Positions 6,373-15,060 of a DNA stretch of 64,000 nt are shown in pieces (positions within the stretch are counted from its first letter, which is position 1; every line of letters starts with the position of its first letter). The position numbers were made by a program, and so were the translations under genes. This DNA comes from SAR202 cluster bacterium bin22 (GTDB taxonomy: Bacteria; Chloroflexota; Dehalococcoidia; Lucifugimonadales; UBA3495): positions 1 to 64,000 of the forward strand of contig MPMM01000011.1 in the NCBI GenBank assembly GCA_002238505.1. Direction: 5' to 3'. The notes below the pieces were generated by a model. It was not told the origin of the DNA and made no database searches. It saw only the letters and a program-made list of their open reading frames with translations.

Positions 6373-7371
6373 CTACAGATTTATAGCAGGCTCCACGTAG
6401 TCCTTGACCTTGTTGTAAATTTGGAGCCGGTGATGGTACGACTCCAGGACTATGATCCGGTCGGCGGCGTCAACATTGACGGCCACCGGACGCCGGAACC
6501 GCCATTCAGGTTCGAGGTCTGTTCGACGCCTGGCTTTGATGATATCCGGATTGGCATCGATGTAAGTTTGGGCCCACGGCGAGGGCTCCTGGGCGTCGCC
6601 GACCAGCGCTGTAATGTATTGGCCGTCGGCAGCATAGATCTGGACACGGTGGTTCCCCCAGTCAGTTACGTAAACATCCCCATCCGAGTCCACTGCTACC
6701 CCGGAAGGACCCTTTAGAGACCCCACCCCTGCGCTGGAGCCTTCGAACTTAAGGAGCAACTCCCCGGTAGGGGCGAATTTCTGCACCCGGTTATTTCCCC
6801 AGTCCGCCACGTAAATGTTGTCGTAGCGGTCGAGGCAGATGCCCCATGGCATTTCCAGTTCTCCGTCACCACTGCCGCGCTTCCCGAAGCGAGACCGAAA
6901 CTCACCGATCTGGCTGAAACTTTGCACCCGGTGATTCAGGCTGTCCACCACCCAGATGGTTCCCCATGAATCGAAAGCGATTCCTGACGGTCCGTTCAAC
7001 TGCCCGTCTTCGCTGCCGGACCTGCCCCAGTGGTACCGGTAAGCGCCCTCGTCATCGTAAACGGTGATCCGGTTGAGATGCTCGTCCGAAACGAACACTC
7101 GTCCGTCACGGTCCAAATCGATTGACCGGGGCCAGACAAAGCGCCCATCCTCTGCACCGACAGAGCCGAACTGGCCTTGAAACTCGTGGTCCAGGGTAAC
7201 CTTACTGACACGCTGGCCCAACTGCTCCACGCCGCGGCTTAACACAAACATTCGACCGTTTGGCCCCAGGACAAAATCCTGGGGAGCCCAAAATCCCCGG
7301 CCCGACTGGCTGTACATGCCAATGCAGTAACTATAGTCATATACCCGGCCAGCGGCGACTGTGGTCAGCAT
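6373..7371 (-). CDS. NHL-repeat beta-propeller protein
   Basis: 332 residues with about six NHL-type repeats, recognisable by recurring LNGPSGIAFDSWGTIWVVDS, LEMPWGICLDRYDNIYVADW and LKGPSGVAVDSDGDVYVTDW segments, each followed by N(N/H)RVQ(K/S/I). It would fold as a six-bladed propeller used for protein or ligand binding. No signal peptide is evident; the N-terminus (MLTTVAAGRVYDYSYC) goes straight into the first blade. It is the third gene of a minus-strand set after DUF1800 and DUF1501, separated from DUF1501 by 36 bases, suggesting co-transcription. The substrate is unknown. Confidence 0.85.
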   Translation of the reverse strand: MLTTVAAGRVYDYSYCIGMYSQSGRGFWAPQDFVLGPNGRMFVLSRGVEQLGQRVSKVTLDHEFQGQFGSVGAEDGRFVWPRSIDLDRDGRVFVSDEHLNRITVYDDEGAYRYHWGRSGSEDGQLNGPSGIAFDSWGTIWVVDSLNHRVQSFSQIGEFRSRFGKRGSGDGELEMPWGICLDRYDNIYVADWGNNRVQKFAPTGELLLKFEGSSAGVGSLKGPSGVAVDSDGDVYVTDWGNHRVQIYAADGQYITALVGDAQEPSPWAQTYIDANPDIIKARRRTDLEPEWRFRRPVAVNVDAADRIIVLESYHHRLQIYNKVKDYVEPAINL

Positions 7372-7407
7372 ATCCCTTCTCCCGTGAACGAATTCGGGGG
7401 CCTGAAG

Positions 7408-8550
7408 CTACACGAAAGACATTTGCTCAAAGTGTCCACCGACGATGGGCACCGGATCGAGTCCCAGCCACCTCTCCGCCAAAGTGGAGTAGAAGCCGCG
7501 GAAATCGTAGCTTGGCGCCAGGTCTCCCTCGGTCAGGTCCTCAAGCTTCAACGACGGATAAGTCCCGTACATTCCACCATTCACCCGATCACCGATGGCA
7601 AAGGCCACCCCGGCAGCACCGTGGTCGGTACCAGTGCCGTTATCGCGGACGCGGCGCCCAAACTCGCTGAACAACATAACAACCACTTCGTCTGAGGCAT
7701 CGTGCTCCCGCAGGTCAGCGAAGAAGTCGCGTATGGCGGCGGATACGTCCATCCAAAGCTTGGTATGGGAGCCCATCTGGTCATAGTGGGTGTCGAAGGA
7801 CCCGTAGGCCGTGTAAAAGACCTGGGTACCCAGATCCGCCAGGTGTACCTGGGCCACGTCTCTGAGGCGCCTAGCGATGGGATTGTTGGCATACTCCACG
7901 TTTGAAGAATAGATTTCGGGAGCAACCCTGATGATGTCTGCTCCCTTCAAGGCATCCCGTCCCGCCTGTCCCAGGTATTCCATGGTCGGCCCGGCGCCGA
8001 TGGCGGGAGCGTACATCCTGGCAAAGCTCTCCAATAACTGGTCCCTGTCCTGCTCGGACGTGATCCCCGGATTTGATGAGAGCACACCGTAGGTGGGAAG
8101 ATGATTGACGGAAGTAACGGGAACGCCCTTCATGGCCAGCGCGCGAGGCAAACCCTGGCCCAGGCTCACTCCCTTAAGGACGTTCTCGCCGGCAGGATCC
8201 AGGTCCCGAATCACCTTGGCCAGCCAGCCGTCAGTCCCGATAGAATTTGGTTCGCAGGTATGCCAGATGTCCATGGCGCGGAAGTGGGAACGGGGCGAGT
8301 TTTCGAACCCGATGCCGTGGATGATTGCCATGTTGCCCTGGTCGTAGATATCTTTCAACGGCTCCGTGTCAGACCGGAATGCCAGTTGGTCATCTATGGG
8401 CAGAACCTGGTCTTCAGAGATATGAACCTTGGGCCGGTTGTCCCAGTAAAGAGGGTTGCTATAGGGCACGATGGTATTGAGGTAATCGTTGGCCCCGGTT
8501 AGCTCCATTACCACCAATACGGGGTCTTTATGGGTTGATGCCATATTCAT
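7408..8550 (-). CDS. DUF1501 family protein (alkaline-phosphatase/sulfatase-like fold)
   Basis: 380 residues. Hallmarks of DUF1501 are VVMELTGANDYLNTIVPY near the N-terminus, GNMAIIHGIGFENSPRSHF, FDTHYDQMGSHTKLW and VVMLFSEFGRRVRDNGTGTD followed by HGAAG. The family is usually encoded beside DUF1800, as here: DUF1800 ends 29 bases upstream. Many homologues carry a Tat signal; this protein starts MNMASTHKDPVLVVMEL with no leader, so it may be cytoplasmic or exported with a partner. The biochemical activity of the family is not established. Confidence 0.85.
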   Translation of the reverse strand: MNMASTHKDPVLVVMELTGANDYLNTIVPYSNPLYWDNRPKVHISEDQVLPIDDQLAFRSDTEPLKDIYDQGNMAIIHGIGFENSPRSHFRAMDIWHTCEPNSIGTDGWLAKVIRDLDPAGENVLKGVSLGQGLPRALAMKGVPVTSVNHLPTYGVLSSNPGITSEQDRDQLLESFARMYAPAIGAGPTMEYLGQAGRDALKGADIIRVAPEIYSSNVEYANNPIARRLRDVAQVHLADLGTQVFYTAYGSFDTHYDQMGSHTKLWMDVSAAIRDFFADLREHDASDEVVVMLFSEFGRRVRDNGTGTDHGAAGVAFAIGDRVNGGMYGTYPSLKLEDLTEGDLAPSYDFRGFYSTLAERWLGLDPVPIVGGHFEQMSFV

Positions 8551-10486: not shown

Positions 10487-11767
10487 TTAGCGGCTGCTTA
10501 CCCAGAAGTCGTTTGACTTCTTGTCAAACTTTCCATTTCCCACCAGGTCGTCCAGCCAAATCCAGGTCTTGTTCAACCATATCCACCGGAAGTTCCTGAT
10601 AAAGAAACGCGGGATGGCATACTTCCTGCTGGGTGGCTTGGTCCAGGCGCACCGGCGCACGCAGGTGCTGCACGTGCTTCCCACACGGTTCTGGAAAGTC
10701 ATGCACTTCTTTGCGTCCAGTTTCCAGGTAAGCACCCCGGTCGCATTGCTTTCGTCAATGGCATCGAAGCTTCGTCCGCCTGTAGTAATTGCTTTTGTGC
10801 CGCACTTCGGTACGCACTTCAGGCATGCGTTGCAGAATTCGGTGATGCCGGAATCCACAGCCCCGGCGGGCTCCAGCGGAAGGTCGGTGAAAATCTTGGA
10901 TATGCGGCAGCGTGCCCCAACCTTGGGGTTGATCAACATTCCGTGTCTCCCCACCTGGCCAAGTCCTGCATCAATAGCCAGCGGAATGCTGAGGCCGGTG
11001 TCATTGGCTGCCGGAATGGCGTTGTAGCCCAGCCCCCTTATGAATTCAGCCACCATCCAAAGGGTAGGGGCCATGCGGGCGTACGCCAGCGTGCTGAGTC
11101 CCTCGGCAAGCAGGGTCGGCGCATGCTCCGTGCCGTCCAGGTCCTTGCCCCACTCGTGGAGCATCACCACCACGTACTTCATCTCCTTGGGAATGACCCG
11201 GGTGCCGTCGTCAAGGCGAACCGGCCGGTCGTGCTGCTCGTACCCGGGTTCATCAGAAAACTTGATGGGGAAAGCTTCTTTAGTCTCAGCGTCAAAGTAA
11301 TGGGAATACACCCAGCGACGGTCAAGTTCGGCAAAGCCTACCTGGTCCGCCCCCAGGAGTTCAGCAGCTTTTCGCACGATCTGGGAGGCTTCTTTGGGGG
11401 AAGTTTCCGGACGGCCCACCGGCGAGGGCTCCAATTCCGATTGCCATGCGGTAGCCTTCGCGTCTGGCTGGCTCTTGGAGAAGTCCATCAGCGAGAGCAA
11501 AGAATCCGCGGCGGAGTCCAGCCCCCAGGCTGTGGACTCATATCCGACGCGTCCCTTCTCCATTAGCAGGCGCTGTTTGTCCTTAAGTTTGTCTCTTTCA
11601 GCCTTGTAATAGGCATCCCAGACCATCTGCGAGCCCATATGGTCTTTCTGATTAAACCGGACGTATGAGTCCTGCACCTGGTACATTTCGGCGGCCGTAA
11701 CGCGACCGTCCTTGGTCGGATTCTCTTCCGATCGGGATTTAGAATGCCGCCGCGTTCCCAGTTTCAT
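10487..11767 (-). CDS. Reductive-dehalogenase-like iron-sulfur protein without Tat signal
   Basis: 426 residues. The C-terminal third has two 4Fe-4S motifs typical of RdhA: C-x2-C-x2-C-x3-C in EFCNACLKCVPKCGTKAI, and C-x10-C-x2-C-x3-C in CMTFQNRVGSTCSTCVRRC. Upstream segments YVVVMLHEWGKD, GYNAIPAANDTGLSIPLAID and LGQVGRHGMLINPKVGARCR match the cobalamin-binding core of the RdhA/queuosine-reductase superfamily. The N-terminus (MKLGTRRHSKSRSEENPTKD) has no twin-arginine motif plus hydrophobic stretch, and no RdhB-type membrane anchor is nearby, so a cytoplasmic enzyme is inferred. The canonical Pro after the first cluster is Gly (KCGTKAI). The substrate could be an organohalide or something else. 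Confidence 0.8.
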   Translation of the reverse strand: MKLGTRRHSKSRSEENPTKDGRVTAAEMYQVQDSYVRFNQKDHMGSQMVWDAYYKAERDKLKDKQRLLMEKGRVGYESTAWGLDSAADSLLSLMDFSKSQPDAKATAWQSELEPSPVGRPETSPKEASQIVRKAAELLGADQVGFAELDRRWVYSHYFDAETKEAFPIKFSDEPGYEQHDRPVRLDDGTRVIPKEMKYVVVMLHEWGKDLDGTEHAPTLLAEGLSTLAYARMAPTLWMVAEFIRGLGYNAIPAANDTGLSIPLAIDAGLGQVGRHGMLINPKVGARCRISKIFTDLPLEPAGAVDSGITEFCNACLKCVPKCGTKAITTGGRSFDAIDESNATGVLTWKLDAKKCMTFQNRVGSTCSTCVRRCAWTKPPSRKYAIPRFFIRNFRWIWLNKTWIWLDDLVGNGKFDKKSNDFWVSSR

Positions 11768-11970
11768 GCTGCGATACCTCCTGCCGGCATAAGACCACTA
11801 CATACTGCGTTACGTCCGGCAATTTTGCAAACGCGCCGCATCCACCATGTCCGGAAGCCCGAATCCAAGCCGATTCAGTGGATAACCGGCGATAAACAAT
11901 CGCTTTACAGGATCACGGCTCGTTTCGCCCAGCTTTAGAGATTGGGGCTCCGGCCCTGATTACCGGTTAT

Positions 11971-13623: not shown

Positions 13624-15060
13624 CTATCTTCTTCCTTTCAGCTTCCGCCCGAGAGAGGCGCTATTCTCGACAATGGAGTCGATGGTAGAGCTGTCGACTC
13701 CGATCAGCTTTAAGAGTTGCAACTGAAACAAGCCCTCCAATCTTCCATGCAGCTCGAATAGCTCATCAGTAGTCTTGGCCCTAGATTCCGTCGTACTTTC
13801 ATCGTAATGAGTCAGATAGTTTCTGGTGTCGTAGGCTTGGTTTACAAATTTACGTCTTTCCCTTTGTGTTCCGAAGTAAGCCTTAAAGGGATCAACGAGT
13901 CTCCTAATTCGCTTCCTGAGGGTGGGGCGATTATTCAGTACATTGAGGAGCCATGTTTTTGTAGTTTCGTCTAAGTCGCTTTGATTTATTTGGTTTAGCC
14001 GATCTTGGAATTGACCGACAGGTAGTTCAGTTTCAGACGAGCACCGGCTGTGAAACGTTTCCAAGGCTTGAGCTAACCAAAGAATTTTGGCTTCCAAGAA
14101 AACGGAATCTTGGGTCCTGGAGGCGAAATACAAGCCGAGGGCAGGACCGAATTTGTCATAGCTATCGAACCAATGGGGTATCACTTTCTCTATTTGTTCG
14201 GCTACCGCAGGATAGCGGAATAGCGCTCGACCCCGCCGAAAGTCTGGGGCCTTATCTGTCCAAGGAGCAAACATGCCATATATTCGAATGGCCTGCCTGT
14301 ATTCTCGTCCCTCAGGGGTCCCGAGCTTCGAATAGCCGGTCAGCGATTGAATACTTACGTTTTCGTCCAGCGCCAAAGAAAGAAAATTGCAAAATTTGTT
14401 TGCGAGAGCCGCAAAATAACTGAGTGGCTTAGGTTCTACACATTGTATGTGGACCCAGGCTGTCTGCTTTACTGTCATCTCGGTTACAAGTGGCGAGCTG
14501 GTTGGCGCGGGAAAGCCGAATCTGAACTTGAACTCGTCACCATTAGAAAGTGTCAAGCTTATATCTTCAGGTTGGCGAAGCCGCACTGAGCCTCTGATAT
14601 TTCCTGCATCTACGTCTCTTGATACTTCTACACTTATGCCTGTTGTCCACAGCCAGGTGATTAGACCCTCCAATTCAAAACTTAACTCTGTAAACTCGAT
14701 TGCTTCATCTGACCCGTATTCTTCACCGACAAACGTATAGCGTGGATGAATCATCGAAGTAGATAATCCATCCCCCGTAAGGCTTTGCACCCAGTAGTCA
14801 CACACATCCAGGGTTAACAAACCACCATCGAGCACTCTTCCGGAAATCCTACTCGATCTTGGATTTTCGTCTTCTCCTAAAGGAGGTTCTACTGTAAAAC
14901 CAATATTCTGGAACGCCGCACGTTCGTCGCCGAAGTGTCCAGATAACTCAACTGTCACCCTGCCAGTCTCGCTTATCCTCAATAGGCCGGGCAATTCTTC
15001 TTCTGGTTTGTTCGGAATCCAAAAGAATCCCCTAGTTTCTATAGGTTCAGCGATTCGCAC
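13624..15060 (-). CDS. ApeA-like HEPN-domain protein (probable anti-phage defence)
   Basis: 478 residues. Residues 1-~290 resemble the ApeA N-terminal domain (start MRIAEPIETRGFFWIPNKPE, then long beta-rich segments, GRALFRYPAVAEQIEKVIPH). The C-terminal ~170 residues form a helical HEPN-like domain with the motif RNYLTH (R-x4-H), the RNase signature, within AYDTRNYLTHYDE. ApeA-type proteins cause abortive infection by RNA cleavage in E. coli (known for the family). Base composition is visibly AT-richer than flanking genes, and it is unlinked to them functionally, suggesting transfer. No partner gene is present, consistent with a single-gene system. Confidence 0.75.
   Translation of the reverse strand: MRIAEPIETRGFFWIPNKPEEELPGLLRISETGRVTVELSGHFGDERAAFQNIGFTVEPPLGEDENPRSSRISGRVLDGGLLTLDVCDYWVQSLTGDGLSTSMIHPRYTFVGEEYGSDEAIEFTELSFELEGLITWLWTTGISVEVSRDVDAGNIRGSVRLRQPEDISLTLSNGDEFKFRFGFPAPTSSPLVTEMTVKQTAWVHIQCVEPKPLSYFAALANKFCNFLSLALDENVSIQSLTGYSKLGTPEGREYRQAIRIYGMFAPWTDKAPDFRRGRALFRYPAVAEQIEKVIPHWFDSYDKFGPALGLYFASRTQDSVFLEAKILWLAQALETFHSRCSSETELPVGQFQDRLNQINQSDLDETTKTWLLNVLNNRPTLRKRIRRLVDPFKAYFGTQRERRKFVNQAYDTRNYLTHYDESTTESRAKTTDELFELHGRLEGLFQLQLLKLIGVDSSTIDSIVENSASLGRKLKGRR

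Follow-up and report, generated by a model that had tools for sequence, protein, structure and literature searches.

The epoxyqueuosine reductase QueG belongs to the superfamily of cobalamin-dependent reductases with two 4Fe-4S clusters, which it shares with the RdhA proteins. As described in the accessible text of PMC10463259, RdhA subfamilies are respiratory, transmembrane, or catabolic with or without a reductase domain. RDases without a Tat leader are already in print: besides the catabolic enzymes BhbA, NpRdhA and JtRdhA, they include Roseobacter Ros_A3X954, a reported debrominase, and Pararhodobacter A0A2T7UTL8, reported to reduce triiodophenol (PMC13101508, in part), together with Loki- and Thorarchaeal enzymes, archaeal RDases having been described (PMC6737245, in part). 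The lack of the leader is therefore not new as such, and the protein studied here, which resembles these RDases in this trait, is compared with them by description only. Some rdhA-type genes lie in genomic islands; the vcrABC islands found at ssrA in Dehalococcoides are flanked by a 20-bp duplicate of that gene's 3' end, according to the accessible text of PMC3146451.

Within the Dehalococcoidia, the available part of PMC10284905 states that members outside the Dehalococcoidales have no identifiable homologs of RDase complex components, and that of PMC7506110 mentions, for marine representatives, a small number of rdh-like genes of unknown function, which are likewise set beside the present gene by description only. 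Two SAR202 papers refer to dehalogenation, in their accessible text, only as background or in references (PMC5864207, PMC5395668), and the part of the SAR202 dehalogenase literature available to us yielded no report of the present gene or of rdhA at tRNA sites.

Results

The gene and its product

The window, as the term is used here, is the whole stretch of DNA analysed, 64,000 nucleotides of contig MPMM01000011.1 from SAR202 cluster bacterium bin22. The initial annotation had placed a cytosolic reductive-dehalogenase-like protein at 10487-11767 and gave no strand; a 426-aa open reading frame starting with ATG does occupy these positions, and it is read from the minus strand.

10487..11767, minus strand: rdhA-like gene of 426 aa (P0001), stop codon included (ORF, profiles, PDB match)
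10802..10834, minus strand: first 4Fe-4S motif, CxxCxxCxxxC then Gly, residues 312-322 (sequence, alignments)
10703-10705, minus strand: codon of Cys355, part of cluster 2 (sequence, alignment)
10649..10672, minus strand: second 4Fe-4S motif, CxxCxxxC, residues 366-373 (sequence, alignment)

The protein scored 182.2 bits with the RDH profile TIGR02486 (curated cut-off 160.35) and 37.1 bits with PF13486 (cut-off 24.3), and its weak match to the QueG profile TIGR00276, at 51.7 bits, stayed well under the equivalog cut-off of 200. The best PDB match found with phmmer was Sulfurospirillum PceA (4uqu, E 1.6e-49), followed by 8q4h, a tetrachloroethene reductive dehalogenase that we take to be Desulfitobacterium PceA (E 9.1e-44), and by 4ras, presumably NpRdhA (E 1.3e-21). 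Both RdhA-type 4Fe-4S motifs that the initial annotation had recognized are complete and placed after the cobalamin core. Cluster 1 reads CNACLKCVPKCGTKAI (residues 312-327), cluster 2 comprises C355 and CSTCVRRCAW (366-375), and all motif Cys are invariant both in an 11-row alignment of orthologs and in an 11-row diverse alignment. Judged by these matches and motifs, the gene is real and its predicted product belongs to the RdhA superfamily (TIGR02486/PF13486).

It had also been pointed out that the first cluster lacks the usual Pro (CGTKAI). We found CG in place of CP at the end of cluster 1 in 15 of the 16 distinct orthologs; in the sixteenth (L058), with 24 undetermined residues in its translation, the motif was not located. 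Among the relatives, L059 (45% identity) has CA and L080 has CP. The missing Pro is a trait of the clade. The protein is of single-core length and has no reductase domain; judged by that length of 426 aa and by a single RDH profile match (residues 120-377), a vestigial second core is absent as well. Catabolic RdhA differ in both respects: in the accessible text of PMC10463259, they have a second core in vestigial form and, for the most part, a reductase domain.

Phylogenetic placement

In a tree of 63 rows, from which ten duplicates or fragments had been dropped (L035, L037, L038, L041, L064-L067, L093, L095) and for which the fused RdhAs L098-L101 had been trimmed to the region around the RdhA core, the 16 orthologs formed a clade with a support of 100/100. 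Together with L059, from the same genome family, and L080, from another Chloroflexota lineage, they made up an 18-row group (100/99), which was contained, along with Tat-bearing RdhAs and a Tat-less clade of the SAR202 order (L023-L027), in a 37-row group supported at 96/82. The Tat-bearing RdhAs of Dehalococcoides and Sulfurospirillum joined at 88/93, and the branching order among the three parts of the 37-row group was not settled by the tree. Another clade was formed by the BhbA/Nitratireductor type and L029, a protein of the SAR202 order, and an AU test rejected the window group and the BhbA type as one clade (p-AU 0.00146). The initial annotation had proposed comparing the protein with QueG by phylogeny; the three QueG rows formed a separate 100/100 clade, with the present protein outside it. 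Holding the window group with QueG was not rejected (p-AU 0.0964), a value that concerns where the long QueG branch attaches, that is, the rooting, and not membership. The deep placements deserve less trust than their support values imply, since the tree groups were named after the tree had been seen, the respiratory references were picked on score, and a number of long branches come together. In this tree, the Tat-less branch groups with respiratory RdhA and not with QueG.

Catalytic positions and substrate pocket

Three codons correspond by alignment to catalytic positions of Sulfurospirillum PceA, whose Y246 and R305 have documented roles (PMC10624902, in part).

11081..11083, minus strand: codon of Tyr229, aligned to catalytic Tyr246 of PceA (alignment)
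11003..11005, minus strand: codon of Asn255, aligned to PceA Asn272 (alignment)
10904..10906, minus strand: codon of Arg288, aligned to PceA Arg305 (alignment)

At the positions of PceA 305 and 272, the BhbA-type rows have Lys and Asp and the NpRdhA fragment has Lys and His, and neither the PceA Tyr nor the PceA Arg is present in the two aligned QueG rows. As aligned, the set Tyr229/Arg288/Asn255 is of the respiratory PceA type and not of the Tyr/Lys/Asp-or-His type. With this set, and with the BhbA grouping rejected, the suggestion of the initial annotation that the protein may be a catabolic enzyme is not supported in the NpRdhA/BhbA sense. The PceA pocket residues W376 and Y382 are replaced by Gln359 and Thr365; the substrate pocket therefore differs, and the substrate may be unlike known ones. 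An AlphaFold2 model built from 11 close orthologs reached a pLDDT of 33.6, the alignment being too shallow for better confidence.

Leader, membrane anchor and cell location

Ahead of the ATG there are just 10 in-frame codons, not enough for a Tat leader, and no twin-arginine motif occurs in frame. No 19-residue window of the protein exceeds a Kyte-Doolittle mean of 0.88, and there is no strongly hydrophobic segment. The Tat motif was found in all 14 respiratory rows and in none of the wider 18-row group (the 16 orthologs plus L059 and L080); L057 has one chance RR.F before its ATG, with no hydrophobic run behind it. A scan for small hydrophobic same-strand ORFs of 50-160 aa within 1 kb of rdhA revealed no RdhB-like gene at any of the 16 ortholog loci (at L051 the scan was limited to 340 bp of downstream sequence) and detected an anchor ORF beside rdhA in both respiratory controls. 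The absence of leader and nearby anchor gene, which the initial annotation had described for this locus, is thus found throughout the orthologs. A cytosolic location is the natural reading of a protein with neither Tat leader nor RdhB, and the product would act in the cytosol.

Altogether, the protein resembles respiratory RdhA (Sulfurospirillum PceA, Desulfitobacterium PceA, Dehalococcoides RdhA) in its core, its two 4Fe-4S motifs, its Tyr/Arg/Asn set and its place in the 37-row group, and differs from it in lacking a Tat leader and a nearby RdhB, in the Gly after the last Cys of cluster 1, in having Gln and Thr for PceA W376 and Y382, and in its occurrence in SAR202 genomes. With catabolic RdhA (BhbA, NpRdhA, JtRdhA) it shares the absence of the leader, whereas those enzymes fall in a different clade and have Lys with Asp or His at the catalytic positions.

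Distribution and transfer between SAR202 families

The gene was carried by 20 of the 197 related genomes searched (own genome included), belonging to families f1, f6, f10, f15, f31 and f35; 18 had a full or near-full copy at an identity of at least 77% and two had fragments (G037, G026). Some match at E 0.001 or better was present in 147 of the 197 genomes and none in 50. All ten relatives confirmed from 20 pattern matches came from SAR202, Dehalococcoidia or Chloroflexi/Chloroflexota assemblies, among them an ALOHA assembly and SAR202 AC-647-P02, presumably a single-cell genome; the RHO and SB assemblies we take to be from sponges.

The RdhA-like protein was more identical than partial RpoB (pieces of 1112-1262 aa, cut by locus ends) in 102 of the 105 pairs among 15 genomes, a comparison that left aside G095 (no RpoB match), G002 and G004 (partial rdhA) and the two genomes with fragments. 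Median interfamily identity was 80.8 for Rdh versus 65.5 for RpoB; the f35 and f1g5 copies are ~90% identical for Rdh versus ~62% for RpoB. Family f6, one clade by RpoB, is broken by f31 in the 15-row Rdh tree on starred branches; five of the 12 inner branches of that tree are unstarred, several deep forks among them. Carriage by plasmids, phages or viruses was rejected: the best plasmid match reached 34.6%, the five phage matches listed of seven records were all at 31% or less, and none of 14 pattern matches among viral contigs was a relative.

Upstream DNA and gene neighbourhood

Similarity between orthologs with differing neighbours extends a short way upstream of the start codon.

11768..11817, minus strand: ~50 bp of upstream DNA kept between orthologs with differing neighbours (pairwise identity)
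11777..11782, minus strand: AGGAGG ribosome-binding site (sequence; conserved upstream of orthologs)
11799-11804, minus strand: TATGTA box, candidate -10 (within the conserved upstream DNA)

In the first 25-bp block, mean best-offset identity over 21 pairs of seven representatives was 0.64 versus 0.44 for shuffled sequence; in the second it was 0.51 versus 0.42, and in the third the difference was marginal (0.46 versus 0.41). In the same 21 pairs no likeness was found beyond 75 bp upstream or after the stop codon. The orthologs share the ribosome-binding site and a TATGTG-like box upstream, and the conserved DNA may hold a promoter. With ~50 bp of upstream likeness and none after the stop codon, the transferred unit is read as the gene plus its proximal upstream DNA, and the evidence supports its exchange between SAR202 families as a self-contained piece.

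Within the genus, downstream DUF1800 and DUF1501 genes are common to the four named congeneric loci (L032, L033, L034, L036) and an NHL gene to three of them, the contig of L033 ending before it; in L035 a DUF1800 gene at 54% lies about 7 kb from rdhA. Being shared within the genus only, these genes were rejected as functional partners. Outside the genus, no between-group neighbour pair exceeded 52.3% identity in a comparison of 172 ORFs (100 aa or longer, up to 6 kb from rdhA, 16 loci). The best pairs were an 88-aa stretch at 52% (L049, L053) and flavin-monooxygenase-like proteins at 48% over 540 aa (L056, L058), and the MFS genes adjoining rdhA in L056 and L054 are 23% identical; none of the three recurrences was taken as linkage. 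The flavin-monooxygenase-like genes (L056, 3852-5492; L058, 5943-7577) lie within 1.7 kb of rdhA copies that are ~90% alike, and for them a catabolic partnership is conceivable, as is chance. The 20 neighbour proteins outside the genus scanned with Pfam were a mix of housekeeping, transport, catabolic and transposase functions, none of them halogen-related.

CaiB and HpcH/HpaI genes directly adjoin the relative L080, and in the window they also lie near rdhA. As a linked pathway they were rejected, because between the window and L080 their products share just 28% and 37% identity, and CaiB matches number 25 in this genome. The region of L080 itself (L124, 3590-7763, minus strand), in which L080 is followed by the CaiB-like CoA-transferase (28% to that of the window) and the HpcH/HpaI-like lyase (37%), also holds a cupin-like ORF identified by eye and is a possible catabolic operon. 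Elsewhere in the window, the gene at 13624-15060 (minus strand) encodes an ApeA-like protein (Pfam ApeA_NTD1 and HEPN_Apea), of a family linked to anti-phage defence. It lies between a PuuE-like and an HpcH gene that adjoin each other in the sister genome (L032), and thus looks like a strain-specific insertion.

tRNA and tmRNA sites

At three of the 16 ortholog loci, rdhA is found on the 3' side of an RNA gene, at a distance of 112-151 bp; this gene is tRNA-Met in L052 (genome G115, a single contig), tmRNA in L040 (VEXB01000012.1) and tRNA-Val in L056. Four of the five tRNA/tmRNA genes detected in 17 loci sit less than 200 bp from rdhA. Across rdhA, the 3' end of the RNA gene is copied over 30/31 nt in L052 (exact 24-mer) and over 22/27 nt in L040, matches that none of 200 shuffles, which preserved base composition only, equalled in either case; the copy in L056 (11/11 nt) is weak, with 16% of shuffles as high. 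From RNA end to copy end, the distances in L052, L040 and L056 are 1,528, 1,592 and 1,538 bp; these ~1.5-kb intervals consist of rdhA (about 1.25-1.28 kb) and less than 200 bp on each side, with no integrase of their own. In at least two lineages, this evidence supports rdhA lying in a ~1.5-kb single-gene segment bounded by an RNA 3' end and its copy, as site-specific integration would leave; an integrase would then act in trans. Neither the horizontal spread nor these tRNA-linked copies had figured in the initial annotation.

The remaining 13 loci, that of the window among them, showed no RNA-end copy. The copy in the window bears no trace of tRNA integration: the 64 kb contain no tRNA gene, rdhA has no flanking repeat, and a T-loop motif is absent within 800 bp. 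Direct repeats occur at two other loci (an 11-mer within 400 bp in L039, a 13-mer within 1.5 kb in L049), and L048 and L057 each have one T-loop-like motif, at -614 and +642, respectively.

The corresponding sites in relatives are variable on the 3' side. At the tmRNA gene of f35, a 258-aa gene on the 5' side is kept, at 62-91% identity, wherever a match was found (11 of 11 other genomes), and the 3' side differs from L040 in all ten readable genomes, being of several kinds, some common to relatives. By eye, this 3' cargo looks like a luciferase-like flavin monooxygenase in L157-L159 and like an amidase in L153. No tmRNA-end copy within 1.5 kb exceeded shuffles at ten other f35 tmRNA sites (L151-L160), and the test was negative in L150, a shortened copy of the L040 locus past whose end the copy lies. 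A tRNA-Arg/tRNA-Val pair adjoins an M42-peptidase gene in nine of ten loci, and is followed on its 3' side by rdhA in G146, by similar sequence in L135-L139 (with a cupin-like ORF, seen by eye in L135) and by other sequence elsewhere. G099 has the HisS-tRNA-Met pair with no rdhA after the tRNA and a differing further flank, and no tRNA was found at the HisS site of G063. A precise empty site was not found in relatives, either at tRNA-Met-HisS in G099 or on the tmRNA 3' side in f35.

The arrangement is the one typical of tRNA/tmRNA integration sites, and it resembles the Dehalococcoides ssrA islands with vcrABC in that an rdhA-type gene lies by a tmRNA gene and is bounded by a copy of its 3' end. 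It differs from them in that an integration module of six genes, with serine recombinases, is present in sixteen of the islands, in the accessible text of PMC3146451, whereas here rdhA is the sole gene of a ~1.5-kb segment that uses tmRNA and also tRNA-Met, and perhaps tRNA-Val.

Other RdhA-like genes

The genome of the window encodes two further Tat-less RdhA-like paralogs, of 423 and 425 aa (L061 at C53:485277 and L062 at C12:70925), with the motif CQVCQVCVNRCPGRA and scores under the RDH cut-off. They form a deep separate clade with proteins of other Chloroflexota and keep the PceA Tyr and Arg, with Asp in place of Asn. A QueG-clade protein is encoded as well (C16). In another genome of the SAR202 order (G154), a 416-aa RdhA (L029/L067) branches with the BhbA/NpRdhA catabolic clade. 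A different Tat-less RdhA-like protein (31%) is encoded in L064 (7.9-9.1 kb) and L065 (7.4-8.5 kb), in a tight run common to both genomes with PALP, GDPD, Cons_hypoth698 and YchF-type genes (Pfam in L064 only). Directly after the 45% RdhA relative L059 lies a gene of the glyoxalase/dioxygenase superfamily (6903-7493, minus strand).

Discussion

Our preferred reading, which we hold to be probable though well short of secure, is that the gene encodes a cytosolic, dehalogenating reductase of the RdhA superfamily, with cobalamin and two [4Fe-4S] clusters, that has moved as a single-gene unit. Dehalogenation is the activity that the sequence evidence makes most likely. Electrons would reach cob(I)alamin from a low-potential cytosolic donor, ferredoxin or flavodoxin, by way of both clusters; Tyr229, with Arg288 stabilising it, would give a proton; and a halogen (or another leaving group) would be taken off an organic substrate, for which a natural marine organohalogen is the most plausible candidate. 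Its carbon skeleton could then be catabolised or detoxified. The corrinoid may be obtained by salvage. In a genome listed at 97% completeness, CobS is present and CbiJ was not found; this suggests, and does not prove, salvage rather than synthesis.

The most serious competitor to this reading, unlikely in our view and yet deserving attention, is a corrinoid reductase of a non-halogenated substrate, with QueG-like chemistry on an epoxide or another C-O or C-N bond. QueG is the nearest non-dehalogenase family, the AU test (p 0.096) does not reject its attachment beside the window group, the pocket residues are unlike those of PceA and no Pfam-scanned neighbour is halogen-related; the protein nonetheless passes the RDH cut-off and stays far from that of QueG, keeps the PceA Tyr and Arg unseen in the two aligned QueG rows, and coexists with the genome's own QueG-clade protein (C16:464615). 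It is quite improbable that we are dealing with a catabolic RdhA of the NpRdhA/BhbA kind, a cytosolic ortho-halophenol reductase that has merely been truncated, even though the Tat leader is absent, BhbA of Comamonas 7D-2 is 25.9% identical by tblastn and a SAR202-order protein (L029) branches with BhbA. Such an origin conflicts with the rejection of a single clade (p 0.00146), with Arg in place of Lys at the PceA-305 position and Asn in place of Asp or His at 272, and with a length of 426 aa, the RDH match covering residues 120-377 only, versus open frames of 1070-1184 aa in the fused plasmid proteins.

A respiratory RdhA whose leader and RdhB were recently lost, or are encoded elsewhere, would account for the common 96/82 group and the retained catalytic residues, but the leader and a nearby anchor are missing at all 16 ortholog loci, in six families, with positive controls, which makes this very doubtful. 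Vertical descent of an exceptionally constrained gene, for which tRNA adjacency and RNA-end copies arose by chance, could draw on the five unstarred inner branches of the Rdh tree, several deep forks included, and on loss as a cause of the patchy presence. We consider it highly unlikely given that Rdh is ~90% identical between f35 and f1g5 at ~62% for RpoB, that f6 is broken by f31 on starred branches, that two tRNA/tmRNA-end copies beat 200 of 200 shuffles, and that between-group neighbour pairs never exceed 52.3%.

Beyond the preferred reading of a cytosolic dehalogenase exchanged as a single gene, it is possible, if only as a tentative proposal, that a respiratory-type dehalogenase retooled for the cytosol spreads as an integrase-less ~1.5-kb cassette via tRNA and tmRNA 3' ends, with a recombinase in trans, and provides a portable organohalogen-degrading step for SAR202 of the dark ocean and of sponges. 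According to the accessible text of the respective sources, the dark ocean harbours SAR202 in abundance (PMC5864207), and sponges, in which SAR202 are found as well (PMC10640470), make brominated metabolites and have Desulfoluna spongiiphila as their predominant debrominating species (PMC12203066). A Tat-less branch beside respiratory RdhA would show how catalysts of organohalide respiration and cytosolic catalysts can be interconverted, and a one-gene unit at tRNA and tmRNA sites would be a minimal parallel to the Dehalococcoides ssrA islands. Together they hint that the breakdown of natural halogenated compounds in the sea may be portable.
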